The notes beneath the pieces were generated by a model. The model saw only the letters and a list, made by a program, of their open reading frames with translations. It had not been told where the DNA came from and made no database searches. This document shows, piece by piece, positions 1 to 19,157 of a stretch of DNA of 47,487 nucleotides. Every line of letters begins with the position of its first letter. Within the stretch, counting starts at the first letter, position 1. This stretch comes from Bdellovibrionales bacterium (GTDB taxonomy: Bacteria; Bdellovibrionota; Bdellovibrionia; Bdellovibrionales; UBA1609): NCBI GenBank assembly GCA_013216195.1, contig JABSOQ010000012.1, forward strand, positions 1-47,487, in the 5' to 3' direction. The position numbers and the translations under genes were made by a program.

Positions 1-211
1 GATTTGACTGACTGACGACAACAAGGCACTCAAGATTCAAGCTCGACTTAATCAAGTCATCTACAGAGTTATCCACACTACCGTCGTCGACCAAGACAAT
101 GTAGCTCGTGTTTGGCAACTCTTTGCAGACCTTTAACCACTGCTCAATCGCGACCTTCAGCCCAGCGCCTTCGTTGTAGCTTGGGATAACAATCGCAACC
201 GATGAACTCAT
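1..211 (-). CDS. Family 2 glycosyltransferase, N-terminal fragment
   Basis: Partial gene: only the first 70 codons lie in the window and the rest runs off the left edge. Reading leftward from ATG at 211, the product begins MSSSVAIVIPSYNEG and continues to VLVDDGSVDNS. These are the two signature pieces of a GT-A family 2 glycosyltransferase: the first beta strand with the PSYNEG turn that binds the nucleotide, and the DDGS segment of the nucleotide-sugar site. Such enzymes move a sugar from a nucleotide donor to a lipid-linked or growing glycan at the cytoplasmic face of the inner membrane. It is divergent from the UDP-galactopyranose mutase gene with 92 bp between them, which fits a surface polysaccharide locus. 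Acceptor and sugar cannot be told from the fragment. Confidence 0.85.
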   Translation of the reverse strand, partial: MSSSVAIVIPSYNEGAGLKVAIEQWLKVCKELPNTSYIVLVDDGSVDNSVDDLIKSSLNLECLVVVSQSN

Positions 212-303: not shown

Positions 304-1431
304 ATGGCTTCTCCATTAAAAAATTCGATTCTGCTTGTAGGAGCAGGACCTGTTGGCTGCACTGTAGCCAGAGTGTTAGCTGAATTGGGTTACCAATGCC
401 ATATTTTGGAGGCAAGGGACCACATTGCGGGCAACTGTTATGACACGTTCGATAAGCATGGTGTACTTATTCACAAGTACGGTCCCCATTGTTTTCGCAC
501 AGATGATGATGAGGTCTTTCAATTCTTGAGCCGATTCACCAAATGGATCCCTTCTGAATACATTGTAAAGAGTCAGATAAACGACGAGCTGTTTCAATTT
601 CCAATCAACATAGAGACTCTCGAACAAGTCTTCTCAAAGAAGCTCGACAAAGAGAGTGCCGCCGAGCTGTTAGAGGAACTGCGAGACAATTCGATTACCC
701 AACCGGCAAATTCTGAAGAGTTTGTTTTGAGCCGAATTGGCAAACGGCTGTTTGAGATGTTCTACAAAGATTATACCAGCAAACAGTGGGGCAGGCCTGC
801 GTCTGAACTTTCTCCTTCTGTATGTGGCAGGATTCCGGTGAGACTTGATCGCTACCCAGGCTATGTAGAAGCTAAGCACCTTTGCACTCCTGAAGAAGGG
901 TTTACAGCTCTGTTCAAGAAAATGATTGATCACCCTAACATAAAGCTAACCCTCAATTGTGCAAAAGATCATTGGCGTGAAGAGCTCCCTCGACACCAAG
1001 CCACAGTTTACACGGGCACTATAGACTCCTATTTCGACTACAAGATTGGAAAGCTTGATTGGCGAAGCCTAAGCTTTGAATTTAAGAACTACCAAACCGA
1101 GCTTAAGCAACCCTGCCTTCAAATCAACTACCCTAGCAAGGACTTCGAATACACTCGTTCGGTTGAGATAAAGCACATCACCAAACAAAAGATCTCGTCG
1201 ACCACTGTTTCTTACGAATACCCTAAATCTAAGGGAGAACCTTACTACCCAGTACCGGCCCCAAAAAACCAGGAGCTCTATGCTAAATACCAAGAGCTTG
1301 CCGAGCAGGAGCTCAAGGAGAGGTTTGTATACTTTTGTGGTCGATTAGCTGAGTACACTTACATCAACTCAGATGAGGCCGTAAAAAGAGCCCTAGACCT
1401 CTCCGCTAAAATAAAAGACCAACTGAGCTGA
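304..1431 (+). CDS. glf: UDP-galactopyranose mutase
   Basis: Flavoenzyme that interconverts UDP-galactopyranose and UDP-galactofuranose, the donor for galactofuranose in surface glycans. The 375-aa product has the family's usual length. Visible marks are the N-terminal Rossmann FAD motif (LLVGAGPVGCTVAR), the YGPHCFRTDDDEV segment matching the substrate-loop region, the FYKDYTSKQWGRP block, and the KIGKLDWRSLSFEF block typical of the family. I chose ATG 304 because it has AAAGG about 8 nt upstream and sits directly before the FAD motif. An in-frame ATG at 202 would add 34 residues unlike the family and would overlap the divergent glycosyltransferase start. It is the only gene in this island with a clear known reaction, and it points to a galactofuranose-containing polymer. 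Confidence 0.93.
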   Translation: MASPLKNSILLVGAGPVGCTVARVLAELGYQCHILEARDHIAGNCYDTFDKHGVLIHKYGPHCFRTDDDEVFQFLSRFTKWIPSEYIVKSQINDELFQFPINIETLEQVFSKKLDKESAAELLEELRDNSITQPANSEEFVLSRIGKRLFEMFYKDYTSKQWGRPASELSPSVCGRIPVRLDRYPGYVEAKHLCTPEEGFTALFKKMIDHPNIKLTLNCAKDHWREELPRHQATVYTGTIDSYFDYKIGKLDWRSLSFEFKNYQTELKQPCLQINYPSKDFEYTRSVEIKHITKQKISSTTVSYEYPKSKGEPYYPVPAPKNQELYAKYQELAEQELKERFVYFCGRLAEYTYINSDEAVKRALDLSAKIKDQLS

Positions 1432-1470
1432 TAGCCCACCTTCAATACAAGCTCCCGAAATCCAATTATT

Positions 1471-1499
1471 TTGACTTTCATTTGCTGTAGCTAAATAAT
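1471..1499 (+). promoter_or_regulatory. Candidate sigma-70 promoter placing +1 at the radical SAM ATG
   Basis: TTGACT at 1471-1476 and AATAAT at 1494-1499 are separated by 17 bp. Six bases then precede the ATG at 1506, so transcription would start at or next to the start codon. No Shine-Dalgarno sequence is visible before that ATG. Together these suggest a leaderless transcript. Seen by eye only. Confidence 0.35.
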
Positions 1500-1505
1500 T
1501 TAGCA

Positions 1506-2678
1506 ATGTCTGACGCTCCTAAAACAATGTGCTCATTCCCTTGGGAAATGTATAGTGTCGATGTCGGCTTCGGATGGTGGAGACCGTGCCCAAGAATAGA
1601 TTTTCAAAAACTCAATGACCTCGATCTCTTTAATCATGACCGACTCAAGCTACTGAGAAAGAACCTGCGCTCAAATGTACAAGACGAACTTTGTAACAAA
1701 TGTTGGGACGACGAAAAAAGGGGCCTCAGAAGCTACAGGCAAGTATTAAACCAAGATCGGCTAAACGAGTTTGCAGACTCGACTGAGCTCTCTTCACCAA
1801 CGATCCTTGAAATTAAATTTCAAAACTACTGCAATCTCAAGTGTATGTTCTGCTCCAGAAACTGCTCATCGCAGTGGGAAGCCAGCGAGCCGTTTGAGGC
1901 AAGCGAGTTAGGCTCTATCAAGGGTGAGATGGCAAAGCAAGCCAGTTACGAACTGTTAGAGAGAGAAATCGATAACATTCGAACTATTCAGGTGTTTGGT
2001 GGTGAACCAGTTTTACACCCTGAGTTTTCACATGTGGTGAAAACTCTGAATCGGCTCGCCCCAGAAGGTGGTAAAGAACTGAGTTTCAGCACAAACTTGT
2101 TTTTCTCACCAAAAATCATGTCTCGCTTCATCGAAGAAATCGAAGAGGTTCTTCGATCTGGCCATAAACTCTACCTCAGAGTTTCTATCGATGGTGTCGG
2201 ACAGCAAGGTGAATACCTCCGTGAGGGTCTTAAGTGGAGTGTCTTTGAGAGGAACCTCTTTATACTAAGAGACTTCCTTGCCAAACAAAAAGACTTTGGC
2301 AGGGCTAAGTGTAACATCGCTCTTAATATACTGAATCTCACAAGCCTCGGTGACATTGTCAGCTACCTTCAAAGTCATGAGTTGACTCTCTTTCAACCCC
2401 ACTACAATTACGTTGGCAAACCCTCTATGCTCACTTTGTCGAGCTTTGGCGAAAAGATCGCCCCAGCGGTTCAACAGGTGCGAGACACAGACTTTGGTAT
2501 TTATCAAAGCTACAAAGATCACGTGCTTTCTCTAGCGGAGCCTGTAGCGAGGATCGCTCCGAACACCGACTCAATGGAAAAACTTAAACTGTTTCTGTCA
2601 ACCCAAGCACACTTCACGTATAATGAATTCTTTGAAGCATTTCCAAATAATGAGTACATACGAGAGGCCCTCAGATGA
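1506..2678 (+). CDS. Radical SAM protein with N-terminal twitch/SPASM-like cysteine module
   Basis: A 390-aa radical SAM enzyme. The [4Fe-4S] motif CNLKCMFC lies at residues 109-116, and a GGEP segment (FGGEPVLHPEF) for SAM binding follows about 70 residues later. Ahead of the core is a cysteine module: Cys9 in CSFPW, Cys28 in RPCPR, and Cys63/Cys66 in CNKC. It ends in a GLRSYR segment and probably holds an auxiliary iron-sulfur cluster. The same layout is found in the proteins at 8051-9250 and 10675-11760, so the three are paralogues in one island. Proteins of this architecture modify peptides, sugars or other small molecules; the substrate is unknown here. Its stop overlaps the next gene as ATGA, so the two are translationally coupled. 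No ribosome binding site is seen, and it may be leaderless. Confidence 0.85.
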   Translation: MSDAPKTMCSFPWEMYSVDVGFGWWRPCPRIDFQKLNDLDLFNHDRLKLLRKNLRSNVQDELCNKCWDDEKRGLRSYRQVLNQDRLNEFADSTELSSPTILEIKFQNYCNLKCMFCSRNCSSQWEASEPFEASELGSIKGEMAKQASYELLEREIDNIRTIQVFGGEPVLHPEFSHVVKTLNRLAPEGGKELSFSTNLFFSPKIMSRFIEEIEEVLRSGHKLYLRVSIDGVGQQGEYLREGLKWSVFERNLFILRDFLAKQKDFGRAKCNIALNILNLTSLGDIVSYLQSHELTLFQPHYNYVGKPSMLTLSSFGEKIAPAVQQVRDTDFGIYQSYKDHVLSLAEPVARIAPNTDSMEKLKLFLSTQAHFTYNEFFEAFPNNEYIREALR

Positions 2679-4264
2679 AATTGGCTCTACTTCTTCTTTT
2701 GATGACCCTCAGCTTTTCTAGCAAAGCCGTTATTTTACAAATGACTGAAAAACAAAAAAAGACGATACGAGGCATCGTAACCAAAGTGCAGCAGGGCAAG
2801 AAAAAAGAAGCTCTGAACAGTATTACACCTTATCTCAATAAGACGTTGGCTAAGAAATCGATATCTGTTGGCAACCTTCCATTTTTACAAGAGCTCATTA
2901 ATCTCGGTTTTATAATTTCGAGAGAGGCCTATTGGCCAGGCATTAAAACGACTCTAAAAATCAATAAAGATCTTAATAAAAACCGTCACAAACAGCAGGC
3001 CGTCTACTTTCAAGAATTCATCGTCGAAGCTGTAGAGAGTTATAAATACCACTACGTCAACATTATGATTTTGGCCAAGAAAATCAAAATTGTACGTGAT
3101 GCCAATTGGTTTAATCATTACGTAGAAGTTGAAACCAAGCCTATGAAGATCGCTGTCAACAATGGTTCACCAATTAGGCCTGAAACATTTAAAAGTGTAA
3201 GAGTTTTTGGTAAATGGGCCGGACTACTGTTCGACGACAGCGATGATTCTTTCCCTGATTTCGAAGCTGCACTTTTTGACCTCTACATTGAGGCGAATAG
3301 CACTCTTCAGAAAGATAACGCAAGACAACTCTTAGGCCTCTTGTTAGATGTTTCACCTAAAGGCATTCGAAGATTCAACGCTCTAAGAAAGCTTTGGAAA
3401 AGCGCTCGAAGCGAAGGAAACATTAAACTTGCCCTTGGCTACTTGAACTGCAATGACGTAGAAAGAATGACAGCTAAGCCCATCAACAAAACTGTCAAGG
3501 CCGACCTCGAGCTGCAGTGCATATCACTTTATGCTAGAACTTTGAACTATAGCTACAGTACTGACGGCATTAAAGAGTTTATTGATTCTACCACAAGTAA
3601 ATACAAGTTCACAGAGTCAGAGTCTAGACCCGGGGCAATTGAACTGATTTCTTCTCTTATTGAGCTTAATAGACGCATAGGTCAGCTTGATAAAATTGAA
3701 CCTTTGCTTAAGGTGATTAATGCTGCCTCGATTAATCAAACTAATTTTTATAGTACATACTGTGACTCTGTAGTTCGTTACCAGTCTTTAAAAGGCGAAC
3801 AATCAAAGCTTATTTCAAATTGCATACGCAATATTTCAGAGGGCGCTCGCCAGGCCATTAAGTACATTAGTAACTTTGCTTTTATTTACGTCGAAATCTC
3901 AAGGTACTACAGAACGATTGGTGATAATCAAAAGTCGTCAGACTACGCAAAGAAAGCTATGAAAGCCGCCGAAAAGAACCGGCCTAACCGTGGCTACTTC
4001 AAGTTTGAAGTTTTCCTAAACCAGCTTCAGGATCGAATCGCTAACAAAGATATGGTACAAGCTTCAAGAGTTCACAAAAAAATTGAAGCGCTACTTGAAA
4101 ATAACCCTTTTGGCCTCAAGCTCAGCCCACTTGTGAAGGCCCACAAAGGTTTATTGAATGGTGATTTGAAGGGGCCTGAGTTCTTGAAGCAAGTGAAAAG
4201 AAACTACCCGAGCGATGCGCTCATTCAGTTCGATGCTGCTGCTTTGGCCAAGGTCGTTCAGTAA
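2675..4264 (+). CDS. Large secreted helical (TPR-like) protein
   Basis: A 529-aa protein of unknown function. The N-terminus (MKLALLLLLMTLSFSSKA) is a signal peptide, so the mature protein is periplasmic or secreted. The rest is alpha-helical and rich in Lys, Leu and Asn. It contains repeats reminiscent of tetratricopeptide units, for example the stretch around residues 390-450 (YYRTIGDNQKSSDYAKKAMKAA). No catalytic motif is apparent. It starts inside the last codons of the radical SAM gene (ATGA overlap), so the two are made together. It may be a partner, a scaffold or the substrate of that enzyme, but the last two are inference. It converges with the minus-strand radical SAM gene with only 4 bp between stops. 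Confidence 0.75.
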   Translation: MKLALLLLLMTLSFSSKAVILQMTEKQKKTIRGIVTKVQQGKKKEALNSITPYLNKTLAKKSISVGNLPFLQELINLGFIISREAYWPGIKTTLKINKDLNKNRHKQQAVYFQEFIVEAVESYKYHYVNIMILAKKIKIVRDANWFNHYVEVETKPMKIAVNNGSPIRPETFKSVRVFGKWAGLLFDDSDDSFPDFEAALFDLYIEANSTLQKDNARQLLGLLLDVSPKGIRRFNALRKLWKSARSEGNIKLALGYLNCNDVERMTAKPINKTVKADLELQCISLYARTLNYSYSTDGIKEFIDSTTSKYKFTESESRPGAIELISSLIELNRRIGQLDKIEPLLKVINAASINQTNFYSTYCDSVVRYQSLKGEQSKLISNCIRNISEGARQAIKYISNFAFIYVEISRYYRTIGDNQKSSDYAKKAMKAAEKNRPNRGYFKFEVFLNQLQDRIANKDMVQASRVHKKIEALLENNPFGLKLSPLVKAHKGLLNGDLKGPEFLKQVKRNYPSDALIQFDAAALAKVVQ

Positions 4265-4268
4265 CCTA

Positions 4269-5315
4269 CTAACCAAGATCGGTAACATCGACGGATGTGA
4301 TGTTGTGATGCTTTCGATTGCATTTCTTCCAGCATTCTTTCAAAACCCGATCGCCATAGCTCCAGGAAGATGGCAGCTCCTTAAAGAACCTGGAATTGAG
4401 AATTTCACCAACACTATAGCGTTCTAGCACATTGAACTCTGAGCCATATCGTTGCTCAATTTGTTTACCCGTTACATTCACCGGAAAGTAATCTGACACA
4501 TAACTGCAGGGCCACAGCCGACCAAATGCTGAAACAAATAGCTTCTTATGACTACGAAAATCACAATCGATATTAAGCTTGGCAGGCTGATTGTTGAGGT
4601 ACTGATCATGGTACTCATATCGATCACTGTTTTCTCCTGGTGGCCGGAGTTCTTTTTCGAAACCAGAAACATCTATATACTTAAAGCTGTCTTGCCCTTT
4701 AAACCGACTGGTCTTTCTAGCTTCGAAACCCTGGAAACCCAGTTTTTCTGCGAGTTCTTTTGCTTCAGCAACCTGATGTGAATTGTGATCGAATATGAGA
4801 TAGCTCCAGATTGCCCTCCCACCACCTTCGATAAAAGCTTTTGCTGAAGACATGATTTTACCCCAAGAGGTCTTTTGCCTATACATTGAGTTCGTATCTT
4901 CAAGACCATCTATTGCAAAATAGATTTGGCCACGGCCTCCAATCAGATTGCCGAGCTCCCTCCAAACTTCTGAATCGCGCAGACTTCCATTGGTGTATAT
5001 TGAGATCAAAAGATCGGGTTTTAGAAATCTCAGATGCCTAACAAAGTCCACTATTTCGGGATGAACTAATGGGTCTCCAAAACGCCCGTTAAAAAGTACA
5101 CTCCTAAGGCCAGAAAGCACATTTTTATCGAACCTATTAATGAAAAGCTCAAGAGGCAAGTTGCTCATCGGCAGCTGTTCACTTGGTCGTCGTGTATCCC
5201 AGGTAGAGCTCTGCTCCCATACTCTTCGAAATCTAGAGCACATAGGGCATGCGGCATTGCACTTGGTAGTAAGTTCAATTGAGAATTCTTCTACCTGATC
5301 GAGAGCTAAGTAAAT
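4269..5315 (-). CDS. SPASM-type radical SAM protein, apparent ATT start
   Basis: Radical SAM enzyme of 348 aa if it starts at ATT 5315. The first in-frame ATG (5243) lies inside the [4Fe-4S] motif: the reading frame upstream of it encodes IELTTKCNAACPMC, giving CxxxCxxC at residues 19, 23 and 26. Before that the frame holds only 18 codons down to an in-frame TAG at 5319-5321, and none is ATG, GTG or TTG. ATT at 5315 lies 6 nt from a strong AAAGGGGGG Shine-Dalgarno sequence. A C-terminal cysteine set (CDFRS, PCSYV, LKECWKKC) looks like a SPASM auxiliary-cluster domain. It follows the B12-binding radical SAM gene, whose stop codon overlaps the Shine-Dalgarno sequence. Substrate unknown. Confidence 0.8.
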   Translation of the reverse strand: MYLALDQVEEFSIELTTKCNAACPMCSRFRRVWEQSSTWDTRRPSEQLPMSNLPLELFINRFDKNVLSGLRSVLFNGRFGDPLVHPEIVDFVRHLRFLKPDLLISIYTNGSLRDSEVWRELGNLIGGRGQIYFAIDGLEDTNSMYRQKTSWGKIMSSAKAFIEGGGRAIWSYLIFDHNSHQVAEAKELAEKLGFQGFEARKTSRFKGQDSFKYIDVSGFEKELRPPGENSDRYEYHDQYLNNQPAKLNIDCDFRSHKKLFVSAFGRLWPCSYVSDYFPVNVTGKQIEQRYGSEFNVLERYSVGEILNSRFFKELPSSWSYGDRVLKECWKKCNRKHHNITSVDVTDLG

Positions 5316-5321
5316 GCCCTA

Positions 5322-5330
5322 CCCCCCTTT
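5322..5330 (-). promoter_or_regulatory. Shine-Dalgarno sequence serving an ATT start codon
   Basis: On the minus strand AAAGGGGGG is followed by 6 nt and then ATT (5315-5313). It overlaps the TAA stop of the upstream gene (5331-5329). The only in-frame codon between the upstream in-frame TAG and ATT is GGC, so this ribosome binding site decides the start of the radical SAM gene. Confidence 0.55.
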
Positions 5331-6783
5331 AGGAACCTGTCTCTGCAGAGAACTTCTCATCTGCAGCAAAAACCAAAAGGTTCTTCAGATGCACAAAATT
5401 CTCAGATACAAATTTTTTGAGCGAATGGACTCTCTGCCGACGAATCTTGGGGTCTAACATCTCACCATTTGAAAGCTGGGTCTGCCATGCATCTCTGGCT
5501 AAGTCATCTTCAGGGTCTATATTGTCAAACACACCGGTGTCTTTAGCAAAATCAAACACAGGTGTGCGCCTTGAAATATAGAGTTCATTGACCACAACCA
5601 TTTCGATTGCCTCATCTAGCTCACGCCTTTTTATCTCTCTCAGAAACTCAAGGTTCTCCTGAAACATCTCTTCGGTTTCGTTGATGTAACCGGCTATCAA
5701 AAGCAGGTTCACTTTAATGCCGTACTTCTTACACATCTCTAGTGAAAAGAAAATGTCATCATTGGTTTCTTTCTTGCCAATGTGCTCTCGAACGTCAAAG
5801 CTGCCAGACTCGACCCCTATCTTAAGACGACAGATACCAGCTTTAGCAGCCAAGGCAAAGTCTTCTTCTTGAGTTATCTGAGCTCTTCGAATTCTAAAAA
5901 AGCATATGATCTTCGGGTCGAGCTGCTTTTCTTCTTTTAGTCGAATGAGTTCGTGGCACATTTTTCTAAACTCATTTGGAGCAGCATTTGTAATACTGTC
6001 AGCTAATTCAATGTAGTTGGTATTGTACCTTTCTTGTGCGTTCATGATCTCACGAGCGAATTCTACACCATCTTTGTATCTGTACTTCTGAGTCATGGCA
6101 GGGACATTGCAAAACGAGCAGTTGAAAACGCAACCTCGTGACCCAATCAGGTAAAGTCTATTGCCTTTTGCTTTCTGCTTGTAATACTCAACGTCACTAT
6201 CTGAAAAGTCAGGCTCTGGCAAAGCTCGAAAGGCCTCCTGACTAATGGGTACAGGTATCTTGCCGTCTATGTTTGGATGATTTGTTCCGCCACTCAGCAG
6301 CTCTAGGAAAGCCTCTTCTCCATCGCCCACCACGTAGTGATCGACCCAGCCATTTTGCTTCCATTCGATGCCAAGATCTAATGCAACCGGTCCACCAGTT
6401 ATAATTTGCACCCCAGGTGCTCTTCGTCTGATTTCATTAGAAATTGGTTCGATAAAGAACTTGCTTGCCCAAGCGTGCGTGCTGAGCCCAATAATCTTTG
6501 GGTTGTATTTGAAGACCTCATCTAACCAAAGGTTCACTTCTTCTAGCAAGAGAGCCTTGTCTTTAAACACCTCTTCGAAATTATTGTAAGGCCACCCCTC
6601 CTGCTCTTTACTATTGAGCCTGCTATATATGCCAGGAGATGGATCGTAGCACACCACACGAAAGCCCTTGTCCTCAGCATAAGCTTTTAGAAGCGCAGGG
6701 GCCAGATGAGGACCCAGCAAAAGGATTGGCGGCACACTGAACAGTACGCAGTCCACGTTTTTTTGTAATTTGATCATTTTCAT
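5329..6783 (-). CDS. B12-binding radical SAM protein
   Basis: A 484-aa protein with an N-terminal cobalamin-binding Rossmann-like domain (about residues 10-165: PPILLLGPHLAPALLKAYAE, IIGLSTHAW, ITGGPVALD, VVGDGEEAF). A radical SAM core follows, with CVFNCSFC at 218-225. The middle of the core (CRLKIGVESGSFDV) matches the family's SAM-contacting strand. Known relatives methylate unreactive carbons or rearrange ring systems using cobalamin and SAM; which one applies here cannot be told. The ATG at 6783 has GGAAAC close upstream. It sits between the binding protein-like gene and the ATT-initiated radical SAM gene, all on one strand with small gaps, so co-transcription is likely. Confidence 0.87.
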   Translation of the reverse strand: MKMIKLQKNVDCVLFSVPPILLLGPHLAPALLKAYAEDKGFRVVCYDPSPGIYSRLNSKEQEGWPYNNFEEVFKDKALLLEEVNLWLDEVFKYNPKIIGLSTHAWASKFFIEPISNEIRRRAPGVQIITGGPVALDLGIEWKQNGWVDHYVVGDGEEAFLELLSGGTNHPNIDGKIPVPISQEAFRALPEPDFSDSDVEYYKQKAKGNRLYLIGSRGCVFNCSFCNVPAMTQKYRYKDGVEFAREIMNAQERYNTNYIELADSITNAAPNEFRKMCHELIRLKEEKQLDPKIICFFRIRRAQITQEEDFALAAKAGICRLKIGVESGSFDVREHIGKKETNDDIFFSLEMCKKYGIKVNLLLIAGYINETEEMFQENLEFLREIKRRELDEAIEMVVVNELYISRRTPVFDFAKDTGVFDNIDPEDDLARDAWQTQLSNGEMLDPKIRRQRVHSLKKFVSENFVHLKNLLVFAADEKFSAETGS

Positions 6784-6808
6784 TGTTTCCAGCTAACTCA
6801 ATTCAAGA

Positions 6809-7981
6809 TCAAGCGGCGCCAAGACCAACTACGGCCATCTTTGACACCAATTTGCCCTCAATTTCATCGTAGAAAGCTGTTGAGTTCAAGTGAAGAGCTG
6901 CTCGTGAAGCAACTTCTAGTTTTGCTGTTTGATTGTTGATTCTCTTAGGTGAAGCTAATTGATCAGCAATAAGTGAGAGCTGGGCAAACACTCTCGTAGC
7001 GGCCTGGAGAGGCTGCCTTCTAAATTTTGCTTCATATAACTTTTCAAGCTGATTTCGATTAGATCTCAAAAGCGACGTCGGAAGCAAAGTCATAACGTTG
7101 CTAAACACACCCGTCTCAACATACTTTAAATTAATATCTGAAATAGAAGGTAGATAAATAGGCTTCACATCTTTCGACTGCGCCTGAATGGCATCGATCA
7201 ATGACTTTAAGTGATTGCTATATCTATTTACCACTAGAACATCAGCCTGCTGAATCTTATGCCTCAAGCTTTTGTCAAAGTGACTGAAGAAGATATTGAT
7301 ACGAACGAACTCGGCGTCGAGGCCCTCGCGCTCTGCAATTTTAACTTGCTCAGCTTCAAGTTCTCTTCCCCACTCATAATCATCACTCAGTACTAGAACC
7401 TTAGGGTTTTCAAATCGGTTATGGATATCGTGGAGAATCAGCTCTGACGAATTTGCCAAGTCAGCACCAATTGGTGCCACGGCTCCACTCATCTGAGAAG
7501 CATTAAATCGTTGGCAGGTACCTGGTAAATGAACCCAATTGTACTTGGCTGCATATTTAGCCTGCTCGGCAGTTACTTTCGAAGAAGAGCCACCCGCAAT
7601 GACTTTGATCAAACTTGGCTCCACCCCTTCAAGAGCAGACTCGATACTCGACACAACATTTTCACTGCGGCATTGATTGTCGCTGACTAGCACTCCCCAT
7701 TTACATGAATGTGGTAAGCTCTTGTTCAGTTCATCAACATAGAGCTGTACGGCATTAACTTGCTGAAGACCTTCTTCCTGGTAAGCACCACTCAAATCTG
7801 CGTTTACTAATATGTACTGAGAACCCTCTCTGCTCTCTAAATCATTGCGAAACACATCAATGTTTATTTGAAAACCCGGTAAGCTCGATGCCGGAACAAC
7901 GATAGGTACAACAACTCGTAACTGCTTAATAAATTCTCTTCTCTGCCATTTTCCCATATATAGAGTATAGGGCTGCATCAT
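6809..7981 (-). CDS. Periplasmic binding protein-like (LivK/type 1) protein with twin-arginine-like leader
   Basis: A 390-aa protein with the fold pattern of type 1 periplasmic substrate-binding proteins (branched-chain amino acid receptor class). Strands such as WGVLVSDNQCRSE, VIAGGSSSKVTAEQ and PKVLVLSDDYEWGRE alternate with helices. The N-terminus holds QRREFIKQL followed by a short hydrophobic run, resembling a Tat signal (RR-x-F-[IL]-K); a Tat substrate would cross the membrane already folded. ATG at 7981 and ATG at 7957 (closer to the RR) are both possible and neither has a clear ribosome binding site. No permease or ATPase gene is nearby. In this setting it may deliver or sense the product or precursor of the radical SAM/oxygenase pathway, which is inference. 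Confidence 0.7.
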   Translation of the reverse strand: MMQPYTLYMGKWQRREFIKQLRVVVPIVVPASSLPGFQINIDVFRNDLESREGSQYILVNADLSGAYQEEGLQQVNAVQLYVDELNKSLPHSCKWGVLVSDNQCRSENVVSSIESALEGVEPSLIKVIAGGSSSKVTAEQAKYAAKYNWVHLPGTCQRFNASQMSGAVAPIGADLANSSELILHDIHNRFENPKVLVLSDDYEWGRELEAEQVKIAEREGLDAEFVRINIFFSHFDKSLRHKIQQADVLVVNRYSNHLKSLIDAIQAQSKDVKPIYLPSISDINLKYVETGVFSNVMTLLPTSLLRSNRNQLEKLYEAKFRRQPLQAATRVFAQLSLIADQLASPKRINNQTAKLEVASRAALHLNSTAFYDEIEGKLVSKMAVVGLGAA

Positions 7982-8050
7982 TTTGATCGCAATAAAAAAG
8001 CCTTAGCTTGAATTCTCATTATGAGACCAAACCAATTTACCTTAACTGAC

Positions 8051-9250
8051 CTATAGGTACCTGGTATACTCAGAGTCTAATGACAACAAGCTTGTCTGCC
8101 GCCTTTCATCAAGAAGAGCTGTTACACGAGAGAATTCTTGAAGTTTTTTATCTTCTCTTTCGACCAAAAACTTAAGCAAAGGTTTAAGCATTAAGTCTAG
8201 GTTTTCTTCACTCTGCCCGTCAAAAACCTCAATCAACTGGTTGCGAATCATTTTGAGATCATCTGCATTCAAATTGCCTAGCTGAAGGTAGGGTTGAATG
8301 ACATGCAGGATGTGAATTTTGGGGTAATAGCTATGAGGATTGCCAATCAACTTCGACTCAACTTCTAAAAACCATCTTGCAAAATCCGGTATGTTGTAAG
8401 CATTCCAGAGTTGAGCGACAAAGGTTACACCCATTGAAATCTCACTGTGTGACTCAAGGTTTCTTACGATTTCTAGGTTCTTCAGTAAATTGCTCCAAAC
8501 ACCACCCGTGCGTATATACTCATAAGTATCGCCTGTTCCATCTATACTAATTTGCAAATGAATTCTCTTAACCTTCGCAGACTTGAGCGCGTTTAGTGCG
8601 CGCTCACTCAACTTTGAAAGGTTGGTAAGCACGACAACTGTTAAATTTGGTAGATCGCCTAACTTTTCAAGAAGCTTTAAGGGTTCATCCATTATCAAAG
8701 GCTCGCCACCAGCAAACTTAAGAAGTACCAGCTTATCTAAAGGTATGTGATCTACCATTTCAGAAACTTTTCGAGTGTCATCATAGTGCCACTCACCGAC
8801 GCCTTCTTCTTTGGCTATGAGATTGGAATTTGATGGCGTACACATTCTGCATTTAAAATTACACAAATTCGAAGACCGGTAGTCTAACAGGTAGATGTTT
8901 TCTGACTCCGTGCCCTTTTCAACACTCCATTCGAGCGGTTCATCGATCTGATCTAACAATTTGTTGTATTTGTCTTTAGGAGACTTTAGCCCCTGCTTAC
9001 TTAACCTTTCACAGCCCCGGCAGACAGTATGGAACTCACCAGAAAGGAGAGACTTTCGAATTTCTTGTGCGAGCGGGTTCTGCATGATGTCCTGGACACT
9101 CTTAAACTCTTCGACTAGGTAAAGAGGTGATATGTCATCATGATATTGAGCATCACAACAGGGCCTGTAGCTTCCTTCAAATTTCTTGTCGAAGCCTTTG
9201 TTGCCACGCCAATCGAAACCAACAAATGGGGCAATACAAATAGGCTTCAA
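8051..9250 (-). CDS. Radical SAM protein with N-terminal twitch/SPASM-like cysteine module
   Basis: A 399-aa paralogue of the enzymes at 1506-2678 and 10675-11760. Motifs are Cys5 in ICIAPF, the pair Cys31-Cys32 in RPCC, Cys77/Cys80 in CRGC, then CNFKCRMC at residues 130-137 and FAGGEPL about 65 residues later. The start is TTG at 9250, directly after the TAG of the upstream oxygenase gene. It must start about there because the conserved Cys5 follows at once, and no in-frame ATG precedes it. The zero-gap junction suggests coupling with the oxygenase, so the two may act on the same molecule one after the other. Function unknown beyond radical SAM chemistry. Confidence 0.85.
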   Translation of the reverse strand: MKPICIAPFVGFDWRGNKGFDKKFEGSYRPCCDAQYHDDISPLYLVEEFKSVQDIMQNPLAQEIRKSLLSGEFHTVCRGCERLSKQGLKSPKDKYNKLLDQIDEPLEWSVEKGTESENIYLLDYRSSNLCNFKCRMCTPSNSNLIAKEEGVGEWHYDDTRKVSEMVDHIPLDKLVLLKFAGGEPLIMDEPLKLLEKLGDLPNLTVVVLTNLSKLSERALNALKSAKVKRIHLQISIDGTGDTYEYIRTGGVWSNLLKNLEIVRNLESHSEISMGVTFVAQLWNAYNIPDFARWFLEVESKLIGNPHSYYPKIHILHVIQPYLQLGNLNADDLKMIRNQLIEVFDGQSEENLDLMLKPLLKFLVEREDKKLQEFSRVTALLDERRQTSLLSLDSEYTRYL

Positions 9251-9919
9251 CTAAATACCCCGAGCATTACAGAGTTCGTCAAAGTCGCCAAGAACACCAA
9301 AAACCAAATGAACCCGTTTGAGTTTGTGAGTTCCGTTGAATGCTGTGTGAAAGTACTTAGTATCGCAAAAGTAACCTTCTCCGTCAGACGGCATGTGGGC
9401 AACCTCAGAATCTATAACCATCTGGCAGGCCGGATCAGTTCTCACCGCGTAGTGAATTCGCAAGTCGTTGTCAGTGTGATAGCTCATACACTTTTTAGGA
9501 TCTAACCTCATGAATCTCATTCTTCTCACTGGAAAAGCTGCCGACACAATCTTGTAGACCTCTTCGATATAAGTGCCAGAAAACTCTTTGTTGAACTCTG
9601 TGAACTGAGACTCATGGAGCTTCACCTCACGCTCTTTCAACGCACCCTTGTTATTATAGGGTTCAAAACTCCATTGATAGGTTAATGATCCACAACCTTC
9701 AAAGTGAAGTGGAGCCTTCGAAGGGTAATCAAGCGGAGTATGGGTGAAACAGATCTGTTTGGTTGCAGGGTCCCAAAGATCATCAGGAAGTGAATCCAAA
9801 AAAGAACTCAATTCGGCTGGATCTACTTGCAGGCCTGTTTTACGAAATCTCCGCAACATTGAGAAGTCAGTTTGATATTTGGAGCAGTCAAAGTTAACCA
9901 CATCAGCCTTTCTAGCCAC
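9251..9919 (-). CDS. Aspartyl/asparaginyl hydroxylase-like Fe(II)/2OG oxygenase
   Basis: A 222-aa protein whose second half carries the iron ligands of a double-stranded beta-helix oxygenase. These are H148-T-D150 in MSYHTDND and a distal H191 in YFHTAFNGT, followed by R202 in KLKRVHLVFG, a candidate 2-oxoglutarate anchor. The spacing and the HxAxNxT...R segment resemble the aspartyl/asparaginyl beta-hydroxylase group, which hydroxylates peptides or free amino acids. The start is GTG at 9919. It heads a minus-strand unit of oxygenase, radical SAM, binding protein-like, B12 radical SAM and ATT-start radical SAM genes, and is divergent from another oxygenase gene 70 bp away. Substrate unknown. 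Confidence 0.75.
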   Translation of the reverse strand: MARKADVVNFDCSKYQTDFSMLRRFRKTGLQVDPAELSSFLDSLPDDLWDPATKQICFTHTPLDYPSKAPLHFEGCGSLTYQWSFEPYNNKGALKEREVKLHESQFTEFNKEFSGTYIEEVYKIVSAAFPVRRMRFMRLDPKKCMSYHTDNDLRIHYAVRTDPACQMVIDSEVAHMPSDGEGYFCDTKYFHTAFNGTHKLKRVHLVFGVLGDFDELCNARGI

Positions 9920-9934
9920 GACTCTAAAGCAAGA

Positions 9935-9963
9935 TTGAAAATCTCACTAATCTGATCTAACAA
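9935..9963 (+). promoter_or_regulatory. Candidate promoter for the plus-strand oxygenase
   Basis: TTGAAA at 9935-9940 and TAACAA at 9958-9963 are separated by 17 bp, in the 70-bp gap between two divergent oxygenase genes. A good GAGAGGAGA ribosome binding site follows at 9972-9980. The promoter match is moderate and was judged by eye. Confidence 0.3.
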
Positions 9964-9989
9964 TACATGTTGAGAGGAGAAAATCAATT

Positions 9990-10700
9990 TTGCAGGTCGT
10001 AGAAAGAACTGAAAACTTCATCATAATCGATGACTTTTTGCCTCAAGACGCTTGGGCCCAATTGCTCGATCAGCTGGAGTGCGAAATCTACAAGCCTGTA
10101 GAGCTCGGCCAAGACAAAGTTTACAAGCTAAACTCTGGTCTGATCTACAAAAGCCTGAATAAGTATTGGTTTTCTAAGCTTCCCTGGCAGAATAACTACA
10201 CCCCCTTCGGAGAGCACCTCCAGGCATTGCTGCGGGAGGACATCTCCTTCATACCCAAGTATGAAGACCTCTCAATGATGGTTCATTGCTACCAAGCAGG
10301 TTCTGAAATTGGCTGGCATAGAGACTCAGGCGTTCTTGCAGCCTACACCTTTTACTGTCATCAAGACTGGCACCCTATGTGGGGCGGTAACCTCATGATC
10401 GCCAGTGAAAAGACATCTTGGGATAGAGTTAGACTCAACACTGACCCACTGCCTGGCACTCACCTAAAAGATAGCTTCGGCGAGCTGTATCAAACTAAGG
10501 GTGTGACTTTTGATCACTCTATCGAGAAGCAAGTTTTGCAAAGCCCTGGCCTCGGCTCTTTTGTTATGCCCAAGCCAAATCGCTTAGTGCTCATCAGCAA
10601 CAAGGTTTTTCACAAAGTCGAAAGGGTCGATGCTGCCGCTGGCTCGCACTCTAGGGTCAGCCTCACCGGTTTTTTTACAGATTCTTCGCCCAAGGGTTAA
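9990..10700 (+). CDS. Fe(II)/2-oxoglutarate oxygenase (prolyl 4-hydroxylase-like)
   Basis: A 236-aa oxygenase with a clear iron triad, H110-R-D112 (IGWHRDSG) and H208 (NKVFHKVERV). R222 (SHSRVSLTGFF) follows and would bind 2-oxoglutarate. The order and the HKV...SR-S-L-T-G-F ending match the prolyl 4-hydroxylase-like 2OG-Fe(II) group. The start is TTG at 9990, set 9 nt after GAGAGGAGA; an upstream ATG (9967) is out of frame. It is the only plus-strand gene between two minus-strand operons, and its last 26 bp overlap the 3' end of the converging radical SAM gene. That placement suggests it belongs to the same pathway but is expressed separately. Substrate unknown. Confidence 0.8.
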   Translation: MQVVERTENFIIIDDFLPQDAWAQLLDQLECEIYKPVELGQDKVYKLNSGLIYKSLNKYWFSKLPWQNNYTPFGEHLQALLREDISFIPKYEDLSMMVHCYQAGSEIGWHRDSGVLAAYTFYCHQDWHPMWGGNLMIASEKTSWDRVRLNTDPLPGTHLKDSFGELYQTKGVTFDHSIEKQVLQSPGLGSFVMPKPNRLVLISNKVFHKVERVDAAAGSHSRVSLTGFFTDSSPKG

Positions 10701-11760
10701 TATCTTCAAAACTATTGCCTCTGACCTGATCAAGCTTATTAAGCCACTGCTTTGAGCGCTCAAAGCCTTTGTGTTCTGAGACCTTTAGCTTGTTCGCCAC
10801 ATGAGAGAGTTCTGAAACACCCTCTATCAAGCTGAAAGCCTGAGCTCGAGCTGTTTCAGGTAAACAGTCTATTGCCAACATATCTGGTGCATCTAGTATT
10901 CGAAAAAAAATGGGAGCTTCTGGCAGAGAGCCATCTCGCCACTGCAAAATCTCTTTGAGGTGAAAAACGTTGAGTATTGAAACAACAGTATTAATTTCGA
11001 ACTCCGCATTTGAAAGGGTCATCATTTTGCCAACAACCTCTTTTACATTTCGCCAAGAAGCAGGAAATCTCGCATACTCAAATACTTCGTCTACTCCGTC
11101 TATGCTTAAAATCAACCTCACTTTTTTAAACTTTTTCCATAGCGCGAGAATTCTATCGGTGCAGATCGTTGCATTGGTAACATAGTTCAACGAAATGTTA
11201 GGTGCTCGACCCCGCTCTACAAGCTTTTCAAGAAATTCTAGGTGCGTGTTCATGAGCAAGACTTCGCCACCAGCAAACTTGATCCATTCGACTGTGTCTA
11301 AAACGGCTTCGGGAATTTTTGCCAGGTCTACATTTTCAACTCTGTCGAGCTTAGCTTTACCCTCAAGCTTCACTTCATCTTTTATCCAAGACGAACTGTT
11401 AAAGCTGCTACATGTGACACACTTCAAGTTACACAAGTTTCCCATGTAGAGATCAAGAGCCTTTAACGACGGCACCGAAGATTCAGGCTCGTTCTCAAAA
11501 CTTCTTTCGTTCCAGAAGTCGCGATGACTTTTGCCACCTATTGATTCATGTGACCAGCATCTTTTACAGCCCTCTAGCTGCTCCCCTTCGATCATTCGTC
11601 GTTGAATCGTCTCAACCTCTGCCCCACCAAAGAAGTCTTGGATCTCTGGAAGAGAGCGAGCCCTCTTCTCAAGCTGAGTTTGATCATACCAACAACATGG
11701 TCTCATCTTTTGGCCATTGAAATAAACTGATCTAAAGGCAGCTTTGCAAAAACCTTTCAT
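10675..11760 (-). CDS. Radical SAM protein with N-terminal twitch/SPASM-like cysteine module
   Basis: A 361-aa third paralogue of the set. Motifs are Cys5 (GFCKAAF), Cys22-Cys23 (RPCCWYD), Cys65/Cys68 (CKRC), CNLKCVTC at residues 110-117, and FAGGEVL about 65 residues later, where the usual GGEP has become GGEV. The ILSIDGVDEVFEYARFP stretch is typical of the core and is also found in its paralogues. It is the last gene of a tightly overlapping minus-strand operon; its ATG overlaps the GNAT gene stop as ATGA. Its 3' end overlaps the converging oxygenase gene by 26 bp. Substrate unknown. Confidence 0.85.
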   Translation of the reverse strand: MKGFCKAAFRSVYFNGQKMRPCCWYDQTQLEKRARSLPEIQDFFGGAEVETIQRRMIEGEQLEGCKRCWSHESIGGKSHRDFWNERSFENEPESSVPSLKALDLYMGNLCNLKCVTCSSFNSSSWIKDEVKLEGKAKLDRVENVDLAKIPEAVLDTVEWIKFAGGEVLLMNTHLEFLEKLVERGRAPNISLNYVTNATICTDRILALWKKFKKVRLILSIDGVDEVFEYARFPASWRNVKEVVGKMMTLSNAEFEINTVVSILNVFHLKEILQWRDGSLPEAPIFFRILDAPDMLAIDCLPETARAQAFSLIEGVSELSHVANKLKVSEHKGFERSKQWLNKLDQVRGNSFEDINPWAKNL

Positions 11761-12239
11761 CTTACCTGGAACCTGCTCGCTATTTTAAGCATCGGAGTGT
11801 GATCATCATACCAAGCTTCAGTAAGCCGTTCGAAACCATGTTTCAAAGACCAATCCAGGTGAGTTCTTCTCACCCAACCAAACACATGTTTGTTTGGCCA
11901 GTAATTCTGATGAGCGAGTCTCAAAAGTTCGTGACCCAAGCCCGCCCCTCTATACTGCTGCCTAACGTGAATCGTTCTGTACCTCACCCAGCTTTTGTTC
12001 CAGTTCACCAGCTGAGTTGCGGCTACGATCTCTTCTCCATCAGCAAAGGCAAATGACTGAAACGGTGGCTTTTCAAATTCACTTAGATAAGGGCCAAGGT
12101 GTCTAACGTAAACCTTACTTACCGAGTCTGAGCCCCTAAAATGATTGGTTTCACGCCAAAAGTCGCTAATCTCTTCGAATGAAATCGCTTTAAACTCGAA
12201 CTGTTGACCACCTACCCCAGAATCTACAAAGCTGCTCAT
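11757..12239 (-). CDS. GNAT-family N-acetyltransferase
   Basis: A 160-aa protein of standard GNAT length. The acetyl-CoA pyrophosphate loop is QQYRGAGLGHELL at residues 94-106, preceded by the RTIHVR strand. The family transfers an acetyl or similar acyl group from CoA to an amine. Both ends overlap their neighbours as ATGA (PLP-enzyme gene upstream, radical SAM gene downstream), so the three are probably made in step. A sensible reading is that it acylates an amine installed by the PLP enzyme, as in amino-sugar biosynthesis, but this is inference. Confidence 0.8.
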   Translation of the reverse strand: MSSFVDSGVGGQQFEFKAISFEEISDFWRETNHFRGSDSVSKVYVRHLGPYLSEFEKPPFQSFAFADGEEIVAATQLVNWNKSWVRYRTIHVRQQYRGAGLGHELLRLAHQNYWPNKHVFGWVRRTHLDWSLKHGFERLTEAWYDDHTPMLKIASRFQVR

Positions 12240-13129
12240 AGAGACCTTCGCAAATTCTCAGAGATGCAGAGCCTATTTACCAGACCTGAACGACTAAAAT
12301 GGTCGAACTCTCGGTTTTGAGTTAGTCCAAACAGCACCGTATCACTTGCCTCGACCCGAAACTCTTCGCAGATTTGCAACTGATGGCTCCGATACTTCTG
12401 CCACAAATAGCTAGCACTAAACTCTGACATCAACAACCGATGAATCTTTAAGTTCAGATGATTCACATAAGACCACTCGTTCAACACTGTGGCTGAATTC
12501 TTACTCCATAAGTTGCGGGTGAACAACAAGCCTGATCTCATTCGGCCGCTACAAAAATACTTGCTAAGACTAAAACAAACCGCCTCAACACAAGAGTGCT
12601 CGAAAAGATCTTCCAGGTTCTCATTTGAATTGAACAAATAAGCGCAGTCTAAAAACACAGCAATTTTCTTTTCCGTACATGCGCTTAATAGATCTTCTAC
12701 ACCTTCATAGCGACAACCTGAAGCTGAGAAGGGATGACTCAAAAACAATCTCGAGCCCTCTGGAACAGAGCCTAAGTCACCTGCGACTTGAGCTCCTATC
12801 ATCGCGTGATAAGGGTACTCACCCTTTAGCACGAAGTACTCACGTTTTGAGTACTCGGCATTAAAGGCTTCGATCCCACCAGTAACTCCCTCTACGATAT
12901 GGCAACTCCAATTTGCAGTTTGCGTGACAAATCTACCGGCATGACTAGCCATCCAGGCCTTAAACTCAGATTTGAAAGCCTCAATCTGTTCTGATATTGG
13001 AGAAACCTCACTGCCTTCAAAGAGGTCACCACCACTAAGCTTTCGCAAAAAGCCGTGAACCTCGGGGTCGAGGATGGGGCGGGCACCCTTTGTAATTAGA
13101 GCAGAGCTTTTAGCTTGTCTGGCAGGCAT
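12236..13129 (-). CDS. PLP-dependent aminotransferase-fold enzyme
   Basis: A 297-aa protein with fold type I PLP features. D161-x-A-Y164 (VFLDCAYLF) would contact the pyridine nitrogen and ring. S187-L-S-K190 (CFSLSKYF) supplies the Schiff-base lysine, and the GRMRSG stretch resembles the phosphate-binding Arg of class I/II aminotransferases. It is shorter than typical members (350-400 aa), mainly in the C-terminal small domain, so it may use an unusual active-site arrangement. The start ATG at 13129 overlaps the upstream kinase-like gene by 34 bp, and its stop overlaps the GNAT gene as ATGA. It could transaminate a keto-sugar or an amino-acid precursor; the substrate cannot be told. Confidence 0.75.
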   Translation of the reverse strand: MPARQAKSSALITKGARPILDPEVHGFLRKLSGGDLFEGSEVSPISEQIEAFKSEFKAWMASHAGRFVTQTANWSCHIVEGVTGGIEAFNAEYSKREYFVLKGEYPYHAMIGAQVAGDLGSVPEGSRLFLSHPFSASGCRYEGVEDLLSACTEKKIAVFLDCAYLFNSNENLEDLFEHSCVEAVCFSLSKYFCSGRMRSGLLFTRNLWSKNSATVLNEWSYVNHLNLKIHRLLMSEFSASYLWQKYRSHQLQICEEFRVEASDTVLFGLTQNREFDHFSRSGLVNRLCISENLRRSL

Positions 13130-13638
13130 TCGTTGATTTTAACAAAGTAATTTTCATAAGAGAACACCTCTTTCTCAAGCCCTGTGGGCCTTTCAGTGGC
13201 CCACTTAAAATCAAATGCCACCAGGCGTCCATCGCGTTGGGTTAAATTGCTAAGAGACCCGTTCCTCTTAAACACATTCATAGTCTTAAAGAACCTATGC
13301 ATTTCGAGTACTTGCTCCTCCACGTCGGGGATTTCTTTATGTAGCCTCGGTTTGATGTCTAAAAGTGAATGCCCATAAAACTCTTGAATCGTCCAAAGAC
13401 CCTCACGGCTATGATCAACTAGCTTAGGCAGCCACTCAGAATCTAAACGTTTCAGCCAAAAGATTTCATTATCAAAGAAATCGACAGCCTCTTGTTTAGA
13501 AAAGCGACTTGGTTGCCCCGAGACAGTCGCGCCTTCTGGGTCAAAAACTCTTTTAATTAGACCGGCCTGTTCATCAAGAAAAACCTGACAAAGTGTTCCG
13601 AGCCCTGAGTGATGAGTCTGATATCTAACCCAATTCAT
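13096..13638 (-). CDS. Kinase-fold-like protein without the catalytic-loop Asp
   Basis: A 180-aa protein that reads like a shortened protein-kinase or aminoglycoside-phosphotransferase fold. LIKRVF holds a candidate ATP lysine (K29), FDNEIFWLKRL a candidate helix-C glutamate (E58), and WTIQEFYGHSL fits the hinge. A metal-binding DF pair is in VAFDFKWA (D143, F144) with Lys where Gly is expected. The catalytic loop reads NGSLSNLT (126-133), so the usual HGD/HRD aspartate is absent and Ser stands near its place. It may be a pseudokinase, or a divergent small-molecule kinase. It overlaps the oxygenase gene upstream (14 bp) and the PLP-enzyme gene downstream (34 bp). Assignment to the kinase fold is tentative. 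Confidence 0.55.
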   Translation of the reverse strand: MNWVRYQTHHSGLGTLCQVFLDEQAGLIKRVFDPEGATVSGQPSRFSKQEAVDFFDNEIFWLKRLDSEWLPKLVDHSREGLWTIQEFYGHSLLDIKPRLHKEIPDVEEQVLEMHRFFKTMNVFKRNGSLSNLTQRDGRLVAFDFKWATERPTGLEKEVFSYENYFVKINECLPDKLKALL

Positions 13639-14374
13639 CTTGTATTTCTTTTGAACTAAAATAAGTCAGTGACATTTTCTCGGTATGCGAACCAGAAAAA
13701 TTATTGCTCGCATGAAGTTGACTGCAATCAAAGACAATCACATCACCAATACTCCATTCCACAATTCGATCAATCGACAACCCAAAAAGATTCTCGTAAG
13801 GCAAATGGGTAAGATACTTTTCGTAATCATCTTGATCGAAGTGCTCATTGGTGAAACCAATCAGATCTTGATAATCGGTGACCTTAAAATTGTATTTTGG
13901 TACCTGACCTTCGAATCGCTCTCCCCGCCAAAAATGTGAGGCTTGCCCAAAATTCCTCTGATTAAAAAAGATGGTTGAGAGCTGCTGTGATTCACTTGAA
14001 GCGCTTAGCGGAATCAAGATATTCTTATAAGGAAAATACTGATCGCCCATTTCGTCGGTCTTTCCTGTATCCGTGTGCACATGAAAAGGCACAGATGTGC
14101 TGACGAAAGAACCTCCATGCCTCACGATTTTACCTAGATAGGGCTCCATAAGACTCTCAATAAACCCTTCAACCACTCCACCTTTATCGTATTTGAAATT
14201 CAGTATGCCTGGGTTCTTTTTAGCAAGTCTGCAATGTTGCTCTCGCTCTCTCAACCACTGAACCTGCTTGTCATTCAGCAAGCCTTCATATCGAACCGGG
14301 GCGCTCCGCTCTTTCGCAACGGCTTGCTCTATTCTCTGATCGAATCTGTTTACACGAATCAGCTGCTGTAACAC
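13625..14374 (-). CDS. Fe(II)/2-oxoglutarate oxygenase (phytanoyl-CoA hydroxylase-like)
   Basis: A 249-aa protein with the oxygenase iron triad H100-T-D102 (FHVHTDTGK) and H221 (CSQLHASNNF). A basic residue (K233, TEKMSLTYF) follows at the place of the 2-oxoglutarate anchor. The distal HAS-N-N motif is like small-molecule hydroxylases of the phytanoyl-CoA type, which also include halogenases and desaturases. An Asp is present after the first His, so this one should bind iron with three protein ligands and hydroxylate rather than halogenate. The start is GTG 14374, with AGGAA about 8 nt upstream. It is the second gene of the operon after a 72-aa protein and overlaps the kinase-like gene. Substrate unknown. 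Confidence 0.75.
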   Translation of the reverse strand: MLQQLIRVNRFDQRIEQAVAKERSAPVRYEGLLNDKQVQWLREREQHCRLAKKNPGILNFKYDKGGVVEGFIESLMEPYLGKIVRHGGSFVSTSVPFHVHTDTGKTDEMGDQYFPYKNILIPLSASSESQQLSTIFFNQRNFGQASHFWRGERFEGQVPKYNFKVTDYQDLIGFTNEHFDQDDYEKYLTHLPYENLFGLSIDRIVEWSIGDVIVFDCSQLHASNNFSGSHTEKMSLTYFSSKEIQDELG

Positions 14375-14397
14375 TCTCTATTTCCTAAACCACGAAT

Positions 14398-14616
14398 TCA
14401 GTTGTCTTGAGACTCTGGAATGTCGCCAGCTTTAAAGTGAAAATTTAGTGCGGTGAGAACTCGCTCCATATTGGCAAACTGGTCTGATTGATAATCAAGC
14501 TTAAGCTCAGTCATGCATTTTTCAATGTGATCACTGTTTGGCTCAGACTTTTTAAATTCATCAATTAAATCTCTGTAAATCTGCTCATTTTGTGAAATGA
14601 CCGGCCCAGTTCTCAT
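14398..14616 (-). CDS. Small acidic protein heading the modification operon
   Basis: A 72-aa soluble protein starting MRTGPVISQNEQIY, with no signal peptide, membrane segment or known motif. It has one Cys (EKCMTEL) and is mildly acidic and probably helical. A run of G before the ATG (GGGGG about 4 nt upstream) can serve as ribosome binding site. It stands first in the unit that continues with oxygenase, kinase-like, PLP, GNAT and radical SAM genes, 23 bp before the oxygenase start. A small first gene in such an operon could be a peptide substrate, a carrier protein or a regulator. No Ser-phosphopantetheine motif and no clear leader/core division are visible, so I leave the function open. Confidence 0.55.
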   Translation of the reverse strand: MRTGPVISQNEQIYRDLIDEFKKSEPNSDHIEKCMTELKLDYQSDQFANMERVLTALNFHFKAGDIPESQDN

Positions 14617-18757: not shown

Positions 18758-18803
18758 GGCAACATTGCTAACAACAAAGTTTCAAACATCCTAGGAGGAG
18801 ACA

Positions 18804-19148: not shown

Positions 19149-19157
19149 GCCAAAACA

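Follow-up and report, generated by a model that had tools for sequence, protein, structure and literature searches.

Do the enzymes encoded side by side in a 14-kb island of a Bdellovibrionia chromosome act in one pathway, and if so, on what? The window, meaning the whole 47,487-nucleotide stretch analysed, corresponds to contig C24 in a draft genome from the Bdellovibrionia (G000; 4.1 Mb), and the island spans its positions 304-14374. It encodes five radical S-adenosylmethionine (SAM) proteins (three of the N_Twi_rSAM family, called N_Twi1, N_Twi2 and N_Twi3 here, one B12-binding and one SPASM-type) and three Fe/2-oxoglutarate (2OG)-type oxygenases (AAH, P4H and PHY), together with a fold-type I pyridoxal phosphate-dependent enzyme (PLP), a GNAT acetyltransferase, a kinase-like protein (KIN), a UDP-galactopyranose mutase (UGM) and two exported proteins. 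An earlier note, made from the sequence alone, had proposed that this set makes one heavily modified molecule. The idea of one pathway is now strongly supported by two results: a viral operon holding relatives of seven of the enzymes, and a link between PLP and radical SAM genes that also holds outside the class in which it was found.

Relatives of seven island enzymes in a viral operon

IMG/VR was scanned by DNA pattern with a three-member PLP alignment, which yielded six viral contigs; the twelve-member alignment was too diverse for scans of this kind. The contig IMGVR_UViG_3300020442_004286 (L165; 30% GC) carries relatives of seven window enzymes in one operon at 5375-11091, where the genes lie on a single strand and overlap or abut. 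The identities are 34% for N_Twi1 (E 6e-87), 29% for an N_Twi3-like protein, 40% for PHY, 33% for PLP, 45% each for P4H and KIN, and 36% for AAH. For P4H, KIN, PHY and N_Twi1 (whose relative lies at L165:5375-6613) these are the closest of all relatives compared. In addition, this contig encodes several further N_Twi proteins, two SPASM relatives, one amidinotransferase-like protein, and PP-loop and desaturase-like proteins, the last three labels being partly a reading of motifs. Gene order is similar in a sibling contig (3300020419_001420), where one gene shows 68% identity, and a contig with a more distant PLP relative (L164) carries baseplate-hub and SbcC-type phage genes. Relatives were also found in phages: of P4H and AAH in S-CAM4 and Mosig phages (the Mosig AAH relative at 37%), and of N_Twi in KVP40-like phages. 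Single-protein viral scans with AAH and P4H gave no match, nor did searches of phage records with PHY, a second AAH and glycosyltransferase-like, methyltransferase-like and short-chain dehydrogenase/reductase (SDR)-like proteins.

Association of the PLP gene with radical SAM genes

Among 144 genomes of Bdellovibrionia, which made up our class survey, the PLP gene was found in 11, at 12 loci. An N_Twi gene lies within 3 kb of it at 8 of these loci, and a radical SAM gene of any kind at 10. With the chance per locus set at 5%, the PLP-N_Twi link has a binomial tail of 1.6e-8, or 2e-7 when a near-duplicate pair is counted once. Seven PLP loci from another family outside the class served as an independent test: at six of them an N_Twi gene lies no more than 3 kb away, and the seventh stands beside an AAH relative and near a relative of the B12 radical SAM gene. 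AAH adjoins PLP in L061 and L062, and GNAT relatives lie close to it in L062 and L068. The other recurring neighbours, compared with a control, are of GT2, SIS, SDR, carbamoyltransferase, methyltransferase and amidinotransferase types, the methyltransferase, amidinotransferase and some of the SDR labels being our own reading of sequence motifs.

The exact gene set is not kept across the class. Matches to PHY occur in 6 genomes, to KIN in 3 and to P4H in 1, the window's own genome included, and strict orthologues are absent from nearly all. The earlier note had named homologues scattered singly as a finding that would speak against it; this describes the strict orthologues within the class, but not the cassette. 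Because the PLP-radical SAM link is seen in two classes and seven relatives stand in one viral operon, the island enzymes likely belong to a common pathway.

Gene content and layout

The features of the window that bear on the island are as follows.

2..211, minus strand: GT2 glycosyltransferase (ArnC/DPM-like), N-terminal part, the gene being cut by the contig end; Pfam Glycos_transf_2 8e-6, NF007986 model 7-68
304..1431, plus: UGM; Pfam GLF 1.5e-59, TIGR00031 298 bits
1506..2678, plus: N_Twi1, N-terminal-twitch radical SAM; NF033640 199 bits
2675..4264, plus: 529-aa exported-looking protein, probably of helical repeats; signal-peptide-like N-terminus, weak ARM-repeat match
4269..5315, minus: SPASM-type radical SAM, ATT start; alignment with six homologues, CNAACPMC and C-terminal Cys
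5329..6783, minus: B12-binding radical SAM, methyltransferase-like; Pfam Radical_SAM 1e-19, B12-binding 4e-7
6809..7981, minus: Peripla_BP_6 solute-binding-like protein with a twin-arginine translocation (Tat)-like leader (RREFIK); Pfam 5e-11
8051..9250, minus: N_Twi2 radical SAM; NF033640 223 bits
9251..9919, minus: AAH, Asp/Asn beta-hydroxylase-family Fe/2OG oxygenase; Pfam Asp_Arg_Hydrox 3.5e-9, HTD...H...R
9990..10700, plus (opposite strand): P4H, 2OG-FeII_Oxy_3 oxygenase; Pfam 8.5e-10
10675..11760, minus: N_Twi3 radical SAM; NF033640 278 bits
11757..12239, minus: GNAT acetyltransferase; Acetyltransf_1 7e-5
12236..13129, minus: PLP, short fold-type I PLP-dependent enzyme; invariant residues, PDB aminotransferases
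13096..13638, minus: KIN, kinase-like protein; 45% to viral L165:10001-10546
13625..14374, minus: PHY, Fe/2OG-type oxygenase; HxD...H...K, 40-41% to viral L165:7720-8481
14398..14616, minus: 72-aa backbone open reading frame (ORF) at the right edge of the island, not part of it; synteny in three relatives
15042..15815, minus: bacA (UppP), backbone flank; Pfam BacA 1.5e-62, synteny

Most of the first labels held. Family models, motifs and alignment bear out the five radical SAM proteins; Pfam matches do so for GNAT, UGM and the binding protein-like protein, and the large secreted protein is the exported-looking 529-aa protein. ATGA or zero-gap junctions, thought to run through the whole set, occur at 2675/2678, 9250/9251, 11757/11760 and 12236/12239, whereas elsewhere there are gaps of 13-74 bp or longer overlaps, and the genes occupy both strands. 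A recent foreign origin, judged by composition, was rejected, since GC content, GC at third codon positions and codon use all resemble those of the backbone.

Radical SAM proteins

All three N_Twi proteins exceed the curated cut-off of 170 bits by which membership of NF033640 is defined. An alignment of 15 sequences, these three included, keeps four N-terminal cysteines, CX3CX2C and GGE; the N-terminal C..CC..CxxC module said to be common to the three is exact in two, N_Twi1 having PCP in place of PCC. The N_Twi profile matches SkfB and the PDB entry 8vpo. Compared across the fetched loci, the window's radical SAM proteins reach no more than about 24-33% identity with their closest relatives. 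The family is abundant here: a single 54-kb contig bears nine of the 18 members above the cut-off in this genome, and N_Twi_rSAM-type matches reach 26 in one relative genome. We found no functional study of N_Twi_rSAM in the literature.

In the probable cobalamin-binding protein the Radical_SAM domain is clearly matched, and the B12-binding domain scores 30.2 bits, under its cut-off of 32.1 (E 4e-7). The nearest family models are PhpK/ladder_B12, and TokK is matched in the PDB (3e-7). Alignment with six homologues supports the SPASM type of the fifth protein. The ORF list has it truncated, and an ATT at 5315 precedes CNAACPMC. Because four of the six homologues begin MYxxL exactly there, the gene probably starts at this ATT, which is either a rare start codon or a point error in the draft. 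The ATT is preceded by AAAGGGGGG, and homologues have ATG at that codon.

Oxygenases, PLP enzyme and kinase-like protein

The three oxygenases do belong to different subfamilies: Asp_Arg_Hydrox, 2OG-FeII_Oxy_3 and a third in which HxD...H...K is shared by all seven sequences aligned. AAH scores above the gathering threshold of PF05118 (37.1 > 22.6), and its profile finds Cpz10 (7v4f, 1e-33) as the best solved relative. P4H is 45-46% identical to proteins of the viral contigs L161 and L165. It also matches phrog_19810 and phrog_274, PHROG families labelled 'DNA endonuclease V' despite the Fe/2OG oxygenase domain, a label that is probably a misannotation. No Fe/2OG oxygenase model of Pfam or NCBIfam matched PHY; its facial triad (H100, D102, H221) is invariant in the alignment of seven.

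The PLP protein has no family match in Pfam or NCBIfam. Two observations speak for a PLP-fold enzyme: the PLP aspartate and lysine, Asp161 and Lys190, do not vary among 12 aligned sequences (G81 and R198 are invariant there too), and the profile matches PDB aminotransferases. For KIN the label is weak: no kinase model of Pfam or NCBIfam matched, and the AlphaFold model has a pLDDT of 38. In L116 a relative of KIN (1567-2490) has an apparent Tat leader and is followed after five bases by a B12 radical SAM gene; L061 and L062 show such leaders on methyltransferase-like proteins. Tat-leader proteins as a common feature of the islands were considered and rejected (11/601 near against 12/456 far, p 0.4).

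Chromosomal site

In three relatives, G002 (same genus) and G006 and G020 (same family), kinase and bacA are followed by an ORF of 66-71 aa and then by a cystathionine gamma-synthase-type gene (CGS); in the window, kinase, bacA and the 72-aa ORF are followed by the island. The 72-aa ORF aligns with the small ORFs of the relatives (G002 match, E 1.8e-7), and a search for CGS found no match in this genome. Since a small ORF lies between bacA and CGS in all three relatives, the 72-aa ORF, at first counted with the island, is a backbone gene, and behind it the island stands where the relatives have CGS. A single-sequence structure model of the 72-aa protein was uninformative. The undescribed 66-72 aa family between bacA and CGS (L120:4249-4449, L121:8115-8330, L125:1277-1483) has genes that abut or overlap CGS in three genomes.

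The tRNA-dihydrouridine synthase gene (DUS), a neighbour of CGS in G006, is here on contig C55. At the end of C55 a fragment matches the ArnC model NF007986 at 150-218 (E 0.008), and the first ORF of the window matches it at 7-68. Because the two ends match different parts of this model, C55 and the window contig are probably neighbours, with about 80 codons missing between them and the GT2 C-terminus at the end of C55; no end overlap between C24 and C55 was found. In G031 a different radical SAM island lies directly beside DUS, which suggests that the site is a hotspot. No tRNA or flanking repeats marking an insertion were found around the island. Further along the window (18791-19153) lies a low-complexity ORF, apparently also at the same place in G002 and G006, whose opposite strand would encode a Lys/Ala-rich histone H1-like protein.

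Sister radical SAM islands

Radical SAM genes recur in two cores of three genes each, at identities of at least 45%. Core A (CNYxCSYCWPY type, N_Twi and SPASM) is present in G000, G002, G006, G021 and G035, and genes resembling it are found in G147 (partly), G173 and G175; core B (SPASM, B12 and N_Twi) is present in G000, G002 and G035. The window's set is a divergent case separate from both.

Several further features of these islands were noted. A triad of a CNYxCSYCWPY-type protein, an N_Twi protein with RVCCTANASS and a SPASM protein is conserved in L032, L096, L098, L090, L041, L154 and L155, and sometimes adjoins PLP, glycosyltransferase-like and methyltransferase-like genes. A second island of the window's own genome (G000:C275, L029/L030/L031; about 45 kb) holds nine or so N_Twi, several SPASM-type and one B12 radical SAM gene, with three QueC-like PP-loop proteins and one carbamoyltransferase. 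A family of small Tat-leader proteins (L089:12264-12692 and L156:3136-3543, E 7e-10), in radical SAM islands of two distant genomes, is a possible substrate or scaffold. A membrane protein pair (about 165 and 290 aa; L041:17924-19286, L156:3556-4846) recurs beside such islands, and in L035 (G000:C1:10387-11475) a TAG stop interrupts an N_Twi radical SAM gene.

A proposed shared substrate and its alternatives

The reading we favour, though we give it slightly under an even chance, is that the island is a recombining tailoring cassette acting on one shared substrate, which would be an envelope glycan or glycolipid. The N_Twi enzymes, Fe/2OG hydroxylases, short PLP enzyme and kinase-like protein would all work on this substrate, the N_Twi proteins through radical C-H steps, the three oxygenases by hydroxylation, and PLP and KIN by steps of their own; the B12 and SPASM radical SAM proteins and GNAT would probably add methyl, C-H and acyl changes. 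The substrate may be built on undecaprenyl carriers, with UGM for galactofuranose and the ArnC/DPM-like GT2. The selected trait would be variation of surface structure, which would account for phages carrying such cassettes in host-recognition regions.

A glycan target is preferred because UGM and the ArnC/DPM-like transferase stand at the left end of the island and sister islands contain sugar-type transferases, and because a survey of pelagimyophages places radical SAM cassettes with lipopolysaccharide (LPS)-type glycosyltransferases in host-recognition clusters (PMC7029224). UGM is well above the Pfam GLF gathering score (201.6 > 26.3) and narrowly under the TIGR00031 equivalog cut-off (298.2 < 303.75 bits). 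A galactofuranose-linked or amino-sugar glycan or a modified peptide had been suggested at the outset; UGM and GT2 in the island fit the glycan options, but neither of these genes turned up in the viral cassette, nor was a precursor for a peptide found.

Several points weigh against this reading. The island may combine two separate functions, since UGM, GNAT, the exported proteins and close relatives of the B12 and SPASM genes did not turn up in the viral cassette; the GT2 is likewise unseen there. Glycosyltransferase enrichment near N_Twi genes is modest (5/144 against 2/148 in the control), the catalytic residues of KIN are doubtful, and the viral nature of L165 rests on its placement in IMG/VR and on a sibling in which a partial protein has weak tail-fibre matches. 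As to the substrate, envelope glycan tailoring is a best guess, drawn purely from gene neighbourhood. A wider claim is more tentative still: Bdellovibrionota chromosomes and marine T4-like phages would pass an undescribed seven-enzyme pathway back and forth, and its product would be a chemical decoration of a new class, placed on a molecule of the cell surface or the virion.

The best solved relative of AAH, Cpz10, is a nucleoside-antibiotic hydroxylase (PMC9814697), the best PDB matches of PLP are amino-acid-type aminotransferases, and an amidinotransferase-like gene, by our motif reading, lies beside PLP in L063, L064 and L065. These would suit a small secreted metabolite, derived from an amino acid or nucleoside and hydroxylated, aminated, methylated and acetylated, with the glycan genes as bystanders. 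We regard this as unlikely, although the best placed of the alternatives; no gene for a non-ribosomal peptide synthetase, polyketide synthase, ligase or dedicated exporter was seen in the island.

Peptides are often the substrates of SPASM/twitch radical SAM enzymes. This general habit, the matches of the N_Twi profile to SkfB and 8vpo, and the position of a P4H relative close to a tail fibre gene in cyanophage S-CAM4 would fit enzymes that mature a ribosomally synthesised and post-translationally modified peptide (RiPP) or act on a protein that is exported or belongs to the virion, for example a tail fibre. The shared small ORF that the earlier note had proposed to look for was not there, however: the island gaps hold no non-overlapping ORF of at least 25 aa, and the 72-aa ORF was rejected as a RiPP precursor on synteny. 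The lack of a precursor ORF among those found makes RiPP maturation less likely, and we place peptide or protein modification a little below the metabolite.

That unrelated genes have merely collected at a hypervariable site is improbable. The island's place in the CGS position, the different island beside that site in G031, a gene order unlike that of the viral operon with P4H on the other strand, and the near-absence of strict orthologues from the class are what such collecting would leave, but the same seven enzyme types are adjacent or overlapping in a viral contig at 29-45% identity, and PLP keeps its radical SAM neighbours in two classes. DNA hypermodification employs oxygenases, kinases, PLP enzymes and radical SAM enzymes, and viral contigs share the cassette while a sister island has QueC-like PP-loop genes, but hypermodification of nucleic acids, of the kind seen in phages whose bases are elaborately altered, is the least probable reading of all, the cassette having no recognised base-specific enzyme and its chromosomal copy being accompanied by glycan and exported-protein genes.

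The occurrence of the cassette in a bacterium and on a viral contig narrows the N_Twi_rSAM problem to about seven co-expressible enzymes, and the unnamed PLP family is a marker for finding more cassettes. If a surface glycan is the target, as we favour, radical chemistry would be linked to phage-host recognition; a protein or metabolite target would open a new biosynthetic class.

Comparison with known systems

One of the two nearest parallels is an interchangeable module of Campylobacter phages CP220 and CPt10, with five radical SAM genes and a putative amidinotransferase, of unknown function (Timms 2010, PMC2853527). In CP220 the module also has proteins of nucleotide-sugar-transferase fold, and what distinguishes the two phages here is the module as a whole (PMC2853527). 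The likeness is the tight array of five radical SAM genes; the differences are that relatives of PLP, AAH, P4H and KIN are not annotated there and that the radical SAM proteins are only distantly similar. The window's island also lacks an amidinotransferase, while amidinotransferase-like genes do occur in L063-L065 and in viral L169.

The host recognition cluster of pelagimyophages, a hypervariable phage region, combines radical SAM cassettes with LPS-type glycosyltransferases, and an Asp/Asn beta-hydroxylase is a core gene of these phages (PMC7029224). The accessible part of that survey describes no seven-enzyme set and notes no chromosomal counterpart. Cpz10, the beta-hydroxylase of caprazamycin biosynthesis (7v4f, PMC9814697), shares its oxygenase family with AAH, but its pathway is that of a nucleoside antibiotic and only this one enzyme is alike. 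NF033640, to which three window proteins belong, is a family name without a known substrate.

The earlier note knew of no described cluster with this combination, which stands for this set in the literature found, although modules that join several radical SAM genes to an amidinotransferase had been described from Campylobacter phages in 2010 (PMC2853527). An exchangeable multi-radical-SAM module is a known class of object, whereas the enzyme combination, the chromosomal site and the match between bacterium and virus appear to be new.

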